35,103 bases of DNA from Campylobacteraceae bacterium (GTDB lineage Bacteria; Campylobacterota; Campylobacteria; Campylobacterales; Sulfurovaceae): the NCBI GenBank assembly GCA_027024155.1, contig JALVTE010000062.1:1-35103 (forward strand). The letters are read 5' to 3'. This document shows, in pieces, positions 5,151 through 9,548 of this stretch. Position 1 is the stretch's first letter; every line of letters begins with the position of its first letter. Below the pieces are notes generated by a model. That model was given only the letters and a program-made list of their open reading frames with translations. It was not told the origin of the DNA and did not search any database. The translations under genes and the position numbers were made by a program.

Positions 5151-6629
5151 ATGCAAATAGAGTTTGTTACAAAGAAATTAAAAGATATAAAAGCAGATTT
5201 AGAGTTAATCGTAGTAGTAGATAAAAACTTCGACCACGATTTAGTTAAGGAGCATAAAGCTACATTAAAAGATGCCGGTTTTAGTGCAGAACAAGACGAA
5301 GCTATTTTACTACCGGAGAGCAAAAAACTTTTTGTTGGCTCAGAGTCGCTAAGAGCTAAAGATATTCGTCCAGCCGTTGCTAGTGCGTTGCGTTCTGTTT
5401 TAGGCAAAAAGTATAAAACTGTTAAATTAGCTAGCTACTTAAGCCATGCAAAATGTACTGCAACACTTAGAGCACTTGCAGAGGCAATAGTTTTAGGAAC
5501 TTACGAATACACAAGATACAAAAGTAAAAAAGAGAACTCTAAACTAGAGAAAGTTTTTATCTCTAGCCAAGAGTATAACAGTAAAGAGATAGATAAAGAT
5601 GCAGCAAAAAGAGCAATAACTAAAGGTATCGAGGTATCTTTAAGTGTTAATTTAACAAGAGATATTGTAAACACTCCACCAGACGACTTCTACCCAAAAA
5701 TTATGGCAAGAGTGGCTAAAGATATTGCTAAAAATGAGGATTTAGAGATAAAGGTTTTAAACAGAGGTCAAATAGCAGAACAGAAGATGAACGCCCTATT
5801 AGCTGTAGCAAAAGCAAGCACACATGCACCAAGAGTTATACATATTAGCTATAAACCTAAAAATCCTAAAGCAGTTGTATCTCTTATTGGAAAAGGATTA
5901 ACATACGATAGTGGTGGGCTAAGCCTTAAGCCAAGCGATTTTATGGTTACCATGAAAGCAGACAAAAGTGGTGGCTCAGCAGTTTTAGGAATAATGCAAG
6001 CTGTTAGCAGATTAAAACTACCAATAGAAGTACACGGCTTTATTGGTGCAGTAGAGAATATGATAGGTGGCAATGCCTATAAACCAGACGATGTTTTAAT
6101 AGCGAAAAATGGTAAAACTATAGAGGTAAGAAATACAGATGCCGAGGGTCGTTTGGTTCTTGCAGATGTACTTTGCTACGCACAACAAGAGGTAGATGCA
6201 AACTACATTATCGATATGGCAACACTTACAGGAGCTTGTGTTGTAGGCTTAGGACACTACACAACAGGTGTTATGGGTAACAACCAAAAGATAATAGACA
6301 AAATGCTATACGCTGCAAACACAGCATCTGGAGAAATGGCAGCACAGTTACCATTTAACAGATACTTAAACAAAACTCTAAAAAGCTCGATTGCAGATAT
6401 TTGTAATATCTCAAACACAAGATACGGCGGAGCAATCACAGCAGGGCTATTCTTAAGTAACTTTATCGAAGAGAAAAACCGCCAAAAATGGCTACACTTA
6501 GATATAGCAGGTCCAGCATTCGTAGAACACGAATGGGGCGAAAACCCACACGGAGCAAGCGGTGCAGGCGTAAGAGCAGTAACAAGATTTATAGAAAAAC
6601 TATCAACTAGCGAGGGCGAACACTACTAA
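5151..6629 (+). CDS. pepA: Cytosol (leucyl) aminopeptidase, M17 family
   Basis: This is a di-metal aminopeptidase that removes N-terminal residues from peptides, working as a hexamer in the cytoplasm. The M17 catalytic domain fills the C-terminal part, with metal ligands visible as Lys248 and Asp253 (GKGLTYDSGGLSLKP), Asp271, and Asp330/Glu332 in the family signature NTDAEGRL. The N-terminal ~165 residues form the macro-like domain. Length 492 is normal. It begins 9 bp after trpB with AAGGATATA before the ATG, so the two share a transcript ending at the hairpin near 6690. E. coli PepA also binds DNA, but nothing here shows that role. Confidence 0.95.
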   Translation: MQIEFVTKKLKDIKADLELIVVVDKNFDHDLVKEHKATLKDAGFSAEQDEAILLPESKKLFVGSESLRAKDIRPAVASALRSVLGKKYKTVKLASYLSHAKCTATLRALAEAIVLGTYEYTRYKSKKENSKLEKVFISSQEYNSKEIDKDAAKRAITKGIEVSLSVNLTRDIVNTPPDDFYPKIMARVAKDIAKNEDLEIKVLNRGQIAEQKMNALLAVAKASTHAPRVIHISYKPKNPKAVVSLIGKGLTYDSGGLSLKPSDFMVTMKADKSGGSAVLGIMQAVSRLKLPIEVHGFIGAVENMIGGNAYKPDDVLIAKNGKTIEVRNTDAEGRLVLADVLCYAQQEVDANYIIDMATLTGACVVGLGHYTTGVMGNNQKIIDKMLYAANTASGEMAAQLPFNRYLNKTLKSSIADICNISNTRYGGAITAGLFLSNFIEEKNRQKWLHLDIAGPAFVEHEWGENPHGASGAGVRAVTRFIEKLSTSEGEHY

Positions 6630-6631
6630 TG

Positions 6632-6666
6632 AAGCTCAAAGCTTTAAGCCCAAAGCTAAAAGCATA
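6632..6666. repeat. Heptanucleotide array, locus 2
   Basis: Five in-phase units: AAGCTCA, AAGCTTT, AAGCCCA, AAGCTAA, AAGCATA. All begin AAGC. On the other strand this is the TNNGCTT type seen at 181-208. It starts three bases after the pepA stop codon. Confidence 0.65.
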
Positions 6667-6675
6667 AGAATGTAG

Positions 6676-6700
6676 CGCGCAGTGCCCTCACTGCACGTTT
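6676..6700 (+). terminator. Rho-independent terminator of trpB-pepA
   Basis: CGCGCAGTG (6676-6684) pairs with CACTGCACG (6689-6697) with one mismatch around a CCCT loop, and TTTTA follows. It is the only strong terminator-like structure after pepA. The remaining bases to 6927 hold no further structure beyond the methyltransferase promoter. Confidence 0.55.
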
Positions 6701-6875
6701 TAGCCAAGTAACTCCATAAATATACTATACTCTATCAAGCTAGAGACTTTTCAACCTTTTTAAATCTTTTAAATAGGATAAATTCTAATCTAAACTATAT
6801 TATTTTGCTACTTTTTACAAATATCAATTTATCTTCTCTATAGTACCCCTTGAATACTTCTTGATTCCTGACCGT

Positions 6876-6890
6876 AAGTAAAATTTACTT
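6876..6890. promoter_or_regulatory. Perfect palindrome upstream of the methyltransferase promoter
   Basis: AAGTAAA-A-TTTACTT is a perfect 15-base palindrome centred about 45 bases before the predicted transcription start of the methyltransferase gene. It may be an operator. No candidate controller gene other than the HTH-containing endonuclease is present. Confidence 0.3.
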
Positions 6891-6915
6891 TATCAAAAAT
6901 CAAACAAATATAAGA

Positions 6916-6921
6916 TATAAT
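6916..6921 (+). promoter_or_regulatory. Predicted -10 box giving a leaderless methyltransferase transcript
   Basis: TATAAT ends only six bases before the ATG at 6928, so transcription would start at or next to the start codon. There is no ribosome binding site in front of this ATG. Confidence 0.4.
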
Positions 6922-6927
6922 TAAAAT

Positions 6928-7611
6928 ATGAAATATAATGATATTGATTTACAAAATTGGAAAGAATGTGATATAAATACAGATAGTTTATGGCTAATAA
7001 GTGAACGAGACAAAAGTGGTAAACACAAAAATATTTATCACGGGAACTTTATCCCCCAAATTCCAAATCAACTTCTTAGAAGATATACAAAAAAAGATGA
7101 AGTAGTGCTAGAACCATTCATGGGAAGTGGCACAACTCTTTTTGAATGTGAAAAACTGACAAGAAAATATATAGGTCTCGATATAAATCCTAAAATGATA
7201 GAATATGTAAACGAACAGATGCAAGATAATCTAATCTATCAAGATTATAGCATCAATTTTTGTAATTCATTAGACGAAAAAGCTGTAGATGATGCTGTTT
7301 TATCTTCATTAAAAAATTTTAATCAAAAAAGTGTCCAGTTTGTTTTAATGCACCCACCATATATGGATATAGTTAAATTTACAGAAGATAAAAATGACTT
7401 GAGTCAAATTAATAATATAAATGAGTTTGTTAAAAAATTTAAAATTGTTTGTGAAAATAGCCTAAAATATCTTGATAAAAATAGATATTTTGCTATTGTC
7501 ATTGGGGATGGATATGATAAAAAAAATTTCAGAGTTAAACTAAAAGGAATAGTGGTTAAAAATATAGAATCTTTAAAGAATAATTATTTAAAGGAAAAAT
7601 ATTGTGCATAA
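6928..7611 (+). CDS. Site-specific DNA methyltransferase (N6-adenine or N4-cytosine), possibly shortened
   Basis: This is an AdoMet-dependent DNA methyltransferase acting on an exocyclic amino group. Motifs appear in the order X (GNFIPQIPNQLLRRY, about 43-57), I (VLEPFMGSGTT, about 63-74, then GLDINP) and catalytic IV (HPPY, about 140). After VIGDGYDKKN and KLKGIVVKNIE the protein stops at 227 residues. From my knowledge of the family, relatives usually have an extra stretch between those two segments and a C-terminal WRYRAL...GGFYVFKHEY block, which is absent here, so the gene may be shortened and inactive. It overlaps the next gene by 8 bp and is more AT-rich than the flanking housekeeping genes. 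Confidence 0.8.
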   Translation: MKYNDIDLQNWKECDINTDSLWLISERDKSGKHKNIYHGNFIPQIPNQLLRRYTKKDEVVLEPFMGSGTTLFECEKLTRKYIGLDINPKMIEYVNEQMQDNLIYQDYSINFCNSLDEKAVDDAVLSSLKNFNQKSVQFVLMHPPYMDIVKFTEDKNDLSQINNINEFVKKFKIVCENSLKYLDKNRYFAIVIGDGYDKKNFRVKLKGIVVKNIESLKNNYLKEKYCA

Positions 7612-8293
7612 AGAAAATTTAACATATTCAGAAGCTATTGAAATGGTAATGAAAGATAACGGTGGGTTTGCATCATTAAAATATATTTATGAGAATATTG
7701 AAAAGTATAGAAAAAAAACAGGAAAAACACCTGATAATACTATCCAAGAAAGAGTTCAACGAGATAATAGATTTACAAGAATAGCTTTAGGAGTATATGC
7801 ATTAACAAATTTTTTAGAAAAAGTTGAAAAATATGATTTAGGTTTTTTTGCTACACAACAAGATAATATAGTTTTTAAACAAAAGAAAAAAAATAAAAAT
7901 ACCGAAAAAACTATAACACAAAAAATTAGAATTGGACAAGATATATTTAGAAATGAATTATTAAGAACTTTAAAAAAATGCCCAATTACACAAATTGATG
8001 ATAAAAGACTGTTAATAGCAAGTCATATCAAACCTTGGGTACACAGCAATAATGAAGAAAGATTAAATCCAAATAATGGATTTTTATTATCCCCTCTTTA
8101 TGATAAATTATTTGACAAGAGTATAGGTTTGATTACTTTTACTTCAAAAAAAGAAATTCTAATATCTAAGAAATTATCTAATGAGAATAGAGCAAGGCTA
8201 GGTATTAATAATCGAGATTACATAGCTGAACTACCTGTTGAAGGTAGAGAAGAATTTTTAGAGTATCATAGAAAATATATATTCCAAGGATAA
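7604..8293 (+). CDS. HNH restriction endonuclease with N-terminal helix-turn-helix domain
   Basis: The N-terminal ~70 residues (SEAIEMVMKDNGGFASLKYIYE ... NRFTRIALGVYAL) look like a winged helix of the HARE-HTH kind found on restriction and chromatin proteins. The C-terminal half resembles the HNH_2 family: CPITQIDDKRLLIASHIKPW, then ERLNPNNGFLLSPLYDKLFDKSIGLITF. The cysteine-threonine start, ASHIKPW histidine and NG...FD pattern are the family hallmarks. The start is GTG with AAGGAAAA upstream, overlapping the methyltransferase end. Position next to two methyltransferases marks it as the cutting enzyme of a type II-like system. Its recognition site cannot be read from sequence. Confidence 0.8.
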   Translation: MHKENLTYSEAIEMVMKDNGGFASLKYIYENIEKYRKKTGKTPDNTIQERVQRDNRFTRIALGVYALTNFLEKVEKYDLGFFATQQDNIVFKQKKKNKNTEKTITQKIRIGQDIFRNELLRTLKKCPITQIDDKRLLIASHIKPWVHSNNEERLNPNNGFLLSPLYDKLFDKSIGLITFTSKKEILISKKLSNENRARLGINNRDYIAELPVEGREEFLEYHRKYIFQG

Positions 8294-8298
8294 TATTA

Positions 8299-8748
8299 GT
8301 GAATAATCAAAAAGAATATAATATTTTAATTAGTGCTAATTGTAGTTCAACTTTAAATAAAAAATATTTAAACGATAGATTAGTTGCTTCATTGTATGAT
8401 ATTGATTCAGAAGAAAAAATATCTGATGGAGATAATGAAAAATTTGAAATTTTAGATTATAATTTTACAACTATAATTGAGAATAGCAAGAGCTTAGATA
8501 AATTTATTATTGATACTATAGAAGATACTATTCTAAAAATTATAAATAGAAATGGATATAATAAATCGTTATTTAATCCAAAATTATTTGAAAAAGCTTT
8601 AAATAATAAAGATTTTAAAATTACAGAATATGAGATTGGTAGAATTTATGCATTTGAAGAAATTTATTTTAGAATTATGCAAAAACCCACTAAATTTAAT
8701 GATATTATAGAGCAGATAGTAAATTATAATTTGCAACTTACCATATAG
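8299..8748 (+). CDS. Unknown protein in the restriction-modification island, probably truncated
   Basis: I do not recognise this 149-residue product. It is acidic and rich in Asn, Ile, Lys and Asp, without signal peptide, membrane segment, Cys pairs or a nuclease motif that I can see. It starts with GTG, AAGGA lying 8 bases upstream, 5 bp after the HNH gene, so it is in the same operon. Its last codons (after about 8723) run into DNA that in another frame encodes conserved adenine methylase sequence, so its natural C-terminus was probably lost in the deletion that removed the methylase N-terminus. It may have been a second restriction subunit, but this is a guess from context only. Confidence 0.55.
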   Translation: MNNQKEYNILISANCSSTLNKKYLNDRLVASLYDIDSEEKISDGDNEKFEILDYNFTTIIENSKSLDKFIIDTIEDTILKIINRNGYNKSLFNPKLFEKALNNKDFKITEYEIGRIYAFEEIYFRIMQKPTKFNDIIEQIVNYNLQLTI

Positions 8749-9460
8749 CTATTACAAAGATAGCGAAAGTGGCAGACAATATTTTAGCGATGAAAATAGT
8801 AAAAAGATAGATATTATAAGAACACAAATTCAAAAATGGTATGATGATAAAGAGATAGATGATGATTTGTATTATTTTTTGTTAGCATCTCTCATTGAAA
8901 GTGCTGACAAGGTAGCAAACACTACTTCAGTTTATGGAGCTTTTTTAAAACATCTTAAAAAATCAGCACAAAAAGAATTAATCTTAGAAAGTGCTGACTT
9001 TATTCAAAATGATAATTCTCATCAGGTATTTAACGAAGATAGTAATAAACTCATTAAACACATAAGTGGAGATATTTTATATCTCGATCCTCCATATAAT
9101 CAAAGACAATATAGTGCTAACTATCACTTATTAAATACAATAGCATTATATAAACCTTTTAAACCAAAAGGTAAAACAGGATTGCCTGAGTATAATCGTT
9201 CATCTTACTGTAAAAAAAATGAAGTAAAGGATAGTTTTGAAGAGCTTATCAAAAATGCAAGTTTTAAATATATTTTTTTGAGCTATAACAATGAAGGTCT
9301 AATGAGCAAAGAAGATGTTGAAAATACAATGAAAAAATATGGAAAATATGATTTAGTTACACAAGAATATCAAAGATTTAAAGCCGATAAAACTGAGAAT
9401 AGAAATCATAAAGCCAACAAAACTTTTGAGTATCTACATATATTAGAGAAAAATAATTAA
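8723..9460 (+). pseudogene. DNA adenine methylase (D12 class) lacking its N-terminal half
   Basis: In frame from 8723, just after a TAA at 8720-8722, the DNA encodes NLPYSYYKDSESGRQYFSDE, then IDIIRTQIQKWYDD, then FLLASLIESADKVANTTSVY, all typical of the middle of D12-class N6-adenine methylases. The catalytic DPPY follows in DILYLDPPYNQRQYSANYHLL, and the C-terminus runs normally to FEYLHILEKNN. The AdoMet-binding N-terminus (the KYIGSK and FxGxG motifs, roughly 110-130 residues) is missing, and no in-frame ATG with a ribosome binding site exists near the break; the first possible start is a TTG at 8867. I therefore read it as a non-functional remnant. Confidence 0.75.
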
Positions 9461-9548
9461 CAACCATAGGACTAAACAGGTAAACCTATCGGTGAAGTCT
9501 AATGTTATGAGATTATCCCCATAAGCAAAGATTAACTACTACACCATA

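Follow-up and report, generated by a model that had tools for sequence, protein, structure and literature searches.

VcaM4I is a modification-dependent HNH endonuclease in which H224, D250 and D254 are essential by mutation; recognition of the modified base falls to a separate domain, without whose control the HNH domain is toxic and cuts non-specifically (PMC7897488). PcaRCII, a DNA-binding domain joined to a VcaM4I-like HNH without a methyltransferase (MTase), restricts methylated DNA (PMC8989522). In the wH-HNH enzymes, which measure 224–283 aa, a winged-helix (wH) domain senses 6mA, and some of the MTases adjoining wH nucleases carry frameshifts (PMC11037411). HARE-HTH fused to REase domains has been proposed as a reader of modified bases, leaning to cytosine modifications (PMC10853773); the domain is related to wH, and its reader role in nucleases is a proposal. 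The iceA1-hpyIM locus of Helicobacter pylori is an NlaIII-like CATG system, and the characterised member of the HpyIM family is specific for CATG, a palindrome (PMC13340068).

We compared these systems with a locus in a window of 35,103 nucleotides (the whole stretch of DNA analysed) from a Campylobacteraceae bacterium. Its nuclease has the same HNH catalytic residues as VcaM4I (EVE-HNH) and PcaRCII (DNA-binding domain plus HNH) and, like them, no predicted functional cognate MTase, but its N-terminal domain is HARE-HTH-like, neither EVE nor the PcaRCII three-helix bundle. With the wH-HNH 6mA-dependent endonucleases (SruGXI and others, PMC11037411) it shares the size range and a small helix-turn-helix followed by HNH, and in the cited cases the MTases beside wH nucleases are absent or broken; unlike them, it has HARE-HTH, a predicted sensor, in place of the canonical wH, plus a wrecked MTase pair. 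The HARE-HTH plus REase proteins of Dnd neighbourhoods (PMC10853773) are likewise HARE-HTH–nuclease fusions, proposed to discriminate modified DNA, whereas the window protein is an HNH rather than a REase-fold enzyme and no Dnd genes were seen at the locus. The IceA1-HpyIM/NlaIII (CATG) system is matched by a D12 MTase of the HpyIM family, 63% identical to the ICEA-adjacent D12 of locus L130, and by a gene order corresponding to the MTase1–ICEA–D12 order of L117, L122 and L123; the window differs in having no ICEA, a D12 without motifs X and I, and an extra truncated MTase1.

Organization of the island

Four co-directed genes with a GC content of 0.24–0.25 form an island between flanks of 0.35–0.38, as the original prediction of an AT-rich, one-direction gene set had stated, and the ORFs it had placed at 6928–7611, 7604–8293, 8299–8748 and, for the D12 remnant, up to 9460 are real. 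The features are:

5151–6629: pepA, left flank of the island
6630–9548, no strand: whole island, between pepA and the apaH-like gene
6928–7611, plus strand: MTase1 remnant (gene 1), N4/N6 amino-methyltransferase of 227 aa with motifs X, I and HPPY retained
7604–8293, plus strand: complete HARE-HTH + HNH nuclease (gene 2), 229 aa, overlapping MTase1 by 8 nt
8299–8748, plus strand: acidic 149-aa protein (gene 3), pI 4.9, nuclease companion
8738–9460, plus strand: D12 adenine methyltransferase remnant (gene 4), HpyIM/NlaIII (CATG) family, intact relatives 331–345 aa
9549–10367, minus strand: apaH-like gene, right flank of the island

In the congeners G009 and G007, pepA and the apaH-like gene directly adjoin (gaps of 82 bp and 45 bp, respectively), so the 2.9-kb island would have been inserted between them or lost from these two genomes; in G004, which has the most similar pepA (96%), the contig stops short of the island site. 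Promoter and terminator scans of the island remained at chance level, and its repeats were short A+T-rich matches without clear element ends. A homing-type element was set aside because the junctions vary among loci.

Both MTase genes are truncated, as the original prediction had proposed in ascribing to the first a missing C-terminal block and to the second the loss of its AdoMet-binding half; their homologues at intact loci are longer (260–274 aa for MTase1, 331–345 aa for D12). Gene 1, with Pfam matches to N6_N4_Mtase and MethyltransfD12, carries an in-frame deletion of ~15 codons after ‘VIGD’ and is missing ~37 codons at its C-terminal end relative to the intact homologues (L113, L114, L116, L117, L119 and L122). 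Gene 4 matches MethyltransfD12 at 2.7e-31, covering profile positions 83–251 only: the first ~100 residues, including motifs X and I, are gone, and it is no complete HpyIM-like D12. Its open frame of 240 codons starts at 8738, before the 149-aa gene has ended, and the TTG at 8867 is a purely mechanical start. Family membership suggests CATG specificity for this D12.

The D12 remnant has a pN/pS of 0.20 between the window and L023; constraint is not relaxed, so the gene may have broken recently, and neutral decay also fits. A long decay of the MTase remnants was dropped as an explanation, dN/dS showing no clear relaxation. Among the other relatives, the start region could be read in 29, and all of these have the motif NYIGSK at the D12 start. 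L023 carries NNDIGSK in its place and has lost the start codon; translation of its D12 may still begin at ATGs lying a few codons upstream, and this long frame might still be working. In L005/L006, D12 begins downstream of NYIGSK.

Intact relatives and the exchangeable slot

MTase1 and D12 were searched in 298 Campylobacterota genomes, and whole loci were retrieved. The intact order is MTase1 (~260 aa), a variable nuclease and an HpyIM-like D12 (~331–345 aa). An ICEA-type nuclease fills the slot in L113, L115, L117, L122 and L123 (PF05315 at 2.9e-79 in L113, sequence likeness in the others); L114 and L116 have larger nuclease-like proteins there, and L118, L119 and L124 have other gene sets. 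In L130, an ICEA gene (228 aa, PF05315 at 6.6e-91) precedes a 329-aa D12, which is the arrangement of H. pylori iceA1-hpyIM; most genomes sampled from the same genus carry the D12 gene. ICEA (PF05315), present in L113 and L130, is absent among the window proteins.

Across L113–L124 and L165–L167, two conserved MTases bracket an exchangeable nuclease in a phylum-wide slot, whose contents include ICEA, larger nuclease-like proteins, other HNH sets and a whole m5C restriction–modification system (L118). The slot seems to serve for the exchange of nuclease genes in general, beyond the known iceA locus.

The presence of one nuclease flanked by two different MTases had led to the prediction of an asymmetric recognition site with one methylase per strand, with a still active and protective MTase1 as one option. 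This scheme is not supported: the D12 belongs to a family whose characterised member is specific for the palindrome CATG, and its usual partner is an ICEA/NlaIII-type nuclease, not this HNH; MTase1 moreover bears two lesions here and is broken in every locus with a HARE nuclease. We consider it extremely improbable.

The nuclease and its companion

Gene 2 matches HNH_2 at 3.7e-10 and HARE-HTH at 5e-4, the latter with 20.8 bits and hence below the curated Pfam cut-off of 25.9. An alignment of 13 sequences shows no variation at the catalytic residues H141, N158, D167 and D171. The C-terminal half matches VcaM4I (PDB 6yex) at 2.9e-21, with H224, D250 and D254 of that enzyme aligned to H141, D167 and D171, and N158 completes the motif. 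The protein first described as an HTH-HNH endonuclease is thus a complete nuclease, which has the VcaM4I-type HNH domain and catalytic residues expected of a type IV-like enzyme. Its pN/pS against L023 is 0.21 (0.15–0.30), indicating constraint. The AlphaFold2 model (pLDDT 56) was too poor for use.

The closest relative, in L023, shares 81% identity, and those in L024, L025 and L026 share 65–69%; MAGs carrying this nuclease at 65–69% identity bear the labels Paludibacter, Ignavibacteriales and Paceibacterota, although MAG labels can err. A motif scan of the surroundings of HARE-HNH in L024 and L025 revealed no MTase, the L024 contig stopping just past the 149-aa homologue. L026 has a further D12 gene ~2 kb downstream, besides fragments of the slot’s own MTases.

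The 149-aa protein received no family name from Pfam, PADLOC, NCBIfam or PHROGs. Homologues occur only directly after HARE-HNH genes (70% identity in L023, 51% in L024, fragmentary in L026), and a pN/pS of 0.39 (0.26–0.58) indicates constraint, which supports the frame as a real gene. No match was obtained by plasmid tblastn with this protein or by viral-contig scans with both cassette genes. AlphaFold2 was confident in the C-terminal helices only, and Foldseek returned no match. Where the 149-aa gene is absent, small, mostly acidic gene pairs follow HARE-HNH at L128:3348-3789 and L025:3515-3953.

The tight pairing of a basic nuclease (pI 9.6) with an acidic companion (pI 4.9) that is constrained and moves with it would fit an inhibitor-controlled pair, in which the 149-aa protein restrains the nuclease and frees it on infection; the other small, mostly acidic genes of L128 and L025 point the same way. 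However, L131, L120 and L132 have no small companion gene after the nuclease, and the companion itself has no fold or family match, which makes this reading quite unlikely.

Damaged methylases in loci with HARE nucleases

A HARE-HTH+HNH gene occupies the slot in the window and in L023, L026, L128, L131, L120 and L132; in L129, L121 and L126, HARE-HTH is joined to a different nuclease-like domain that resembles PD-(D/E)XK on visual inspection, and L140 and L141 retain fragments of the HARE part. An MTase was scored as intact when one open frame fell no more than six residues short of the reference at either end. By this measure, MTase1 is intact in 0/12 HARE loci versus 10/17 other loci (p = 0.0012) and D12 in 1/12 versus 13/17 (p = 0.0005), with the Fisher tests overstating independence because descent or transfer links the loci. 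Both MTases are intact in 10 of the 17 other loci and in none of the 12 HARE loci, whereas a type II system with an asymmetric site would call for two intact MTases cognate to the nuclease. The sole HARE locus with a D12 scored as intact is L023, described above as lacking the start codon and NYIGSK. L168, one of the 17 other loci, is truncated by the end of its contig, which makes the contrast smaller.

The breaks lie at varying positions among the loci. The homology of MTase1 stops at residue 36, 45, 110–118, 193–204 or 224, or in a frameshift or insertion (only 36–45 residues are left in L026 and L023), and D12 homology starts at residue 21, 39, 91–98 or beyond 240. In L126 (2449-3708), a 419-codon MTase1 frame contains a long low-complexity insert that separates the motif I half from the motif IV half.

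Traces of the exchange itself were also found. L147 has a HARE-HNH gene with a broken frame and, 30 bp upstream of it, the initial 67 codons of an ICEA-type gene, a fossil of nuclease replacement. In a sample of family f13, a complete HpyIM-like D12 was found in 0/10 HARE-positive versus 55/111 other genomes (hypergeometric p = 0.0017), a count dominated by one D12-rich genus and made on non-independent genomes. Between the window and L023, pS is 0.43 for the HNH gene (95% range 0.34–0.53) and 0.40 for the 149-aa gene (0.28–0.52) versus 0.73 for D12 (0.62–0.85); the ranges of the cassette (HNH plus 149-aa gene) and D12 do not overlap. The HNH and 149-aa genes thus share a younger history with L023 than the flanking D12, as expected of a mobile cassette. 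Replacement of the original nuclease by such a cassette is well supported and, in our estimation, very probable.

The description of the island as decaying misses this pattern of a nuclease cassette swap, in which both methylases are damaged in cassette-bearing relatives too. In ordinary decay, a type II nuclease would have replaced the old one and be silent or inactive, leaving methylases that nothing needs. Solitary nucleases beside corrupted MTases are documented (PMC3488263), and the remnants here look recently broken, yet the nuclease would be expected to go before the methylases. Instead, its frame is mostly open in HARE loci, constrained and with catalytic residues retained, while MTase1 is broken in all of them. 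We regard ordinary decay as unlikely.

Methylases elsewhere in the genome

The window’s own genome, 97% complete, contains no second copy of MTase1 or D12; with both neighbours truncated, it appears to provide no functional cognate MTase. Its other MTases (one Dam-family D12, two m5C and one type III-like) resemble neither MTase1 nor the slot D12. They could in principle shield a type II nuclease, or the protecting gene could be missing from the 97% complete assembly, but besides this lack of resemblance, both m5C genes already adjoin other partners (an NgoPII nuclease gene and a protein with an NgoFVII DNA-binding domain). Protection from elsewhere in the genome is thus very unlikely. Provided that the nuclease works and depends on modification, it is in turn unlikely to target a mark made by these other MTases. 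The Dam-family adenine MTase (L169, G000:C76:5-682), whose gene runs into the end of its contig, raises the possibility of GATC methylation in the host.

A proposed mode of action

Why an intact nuclease is not lethal beside dead methylases, as the original prediction asked, was the right question. The explanation towards which we lean, as a whole, combines cassette replacement with a modification-dependent nuclease independent of the flanking methylases. The ancestor would have been a two-methylase restriction locus, MTase1–nuclease–D12 (HpyIM-like, CATG family), in which a mobile cassette, here a HARE-HTH+HNH nuclease with a small acidic companion, took the place of the original nuclease. 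The MTase1 3′ end and the D12 5′ end were probably lost with or after the replacement, as the locus comparison supports. The nuclease would have stayed intact through being independent of MTase1 and D12. Most likely, the HARE-HTH domain recognises a modified base and guides cleavage by the VcaM4I-like HNH to DNA with methylation that the host has ceased to make, in a putative type IV-like, modification-dependent defence. Loss of MTase1 (and D12) would then be a condition for tolerating the nuclease. Since HARE loci have broken MTases, the HNH is VcaM4I-like and the same nuclease occurs in other phyla with no visible methylase, the paradox of a lethal nuclease most likely dissolves.

The type IV-like character of the nuclease, argued by analogy, is less certain. 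In L139 and L144, HARE–PD-(D/E)XK-like cousins adjoin D12 MTases of a different kind with long frames, so that HARE domains also seem to serve ordinary type II enzymes; in L029, L030, L035 and L150, an m5C MTase lies near a VcaM4I-like HNH domain that has a different N-terminus. In view of these cases, we consider the chances of modification dependence about even. HARE as a sure mark of type IV was dropped on account of the long-frame, different MTases adjoining HARE nucleases in L139 and L144. A narrower version, in which the HARE-HTH-HNH protein is aimed at the former mark of the locus (C6mATG or the MTase1 mark), so that one recombination turns a self-protecting restriction locus against its own earlier modification and MTase loss is a precondition, is doubtful.

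Read in this way, the lethal contradiction between a live nuclease and dead methylases becomes a recurrent, testable pattern: one Campylobacterota chromosomal slot would host either protection-based or probably modification-directed nucleases, two states that seem mutually exclusive. The proposal assigns a candidate function to HARE-HTH in bacterial nucleases, for which the literature we found offers predictions only, and the HARE-HNH family may supply enzymes that could help detect methylated DNA.

Closely similar remnants occur in two species at L140 and L141 (reverse strand), each with MTase1 residues 4–118, ~50 HARE residues and the last 60–75 D12 residues; they are an end stage of the same kind of locus as the other HARE slots. 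At L148 (G129:C1:1313500-1319500), a 245-aa HARE-HTH nuclease lies beside a short, 159-aa N4/N6 MTase frame, a further HARE nuclease whose methylase partner, here of another MTase kind, is probably broken.
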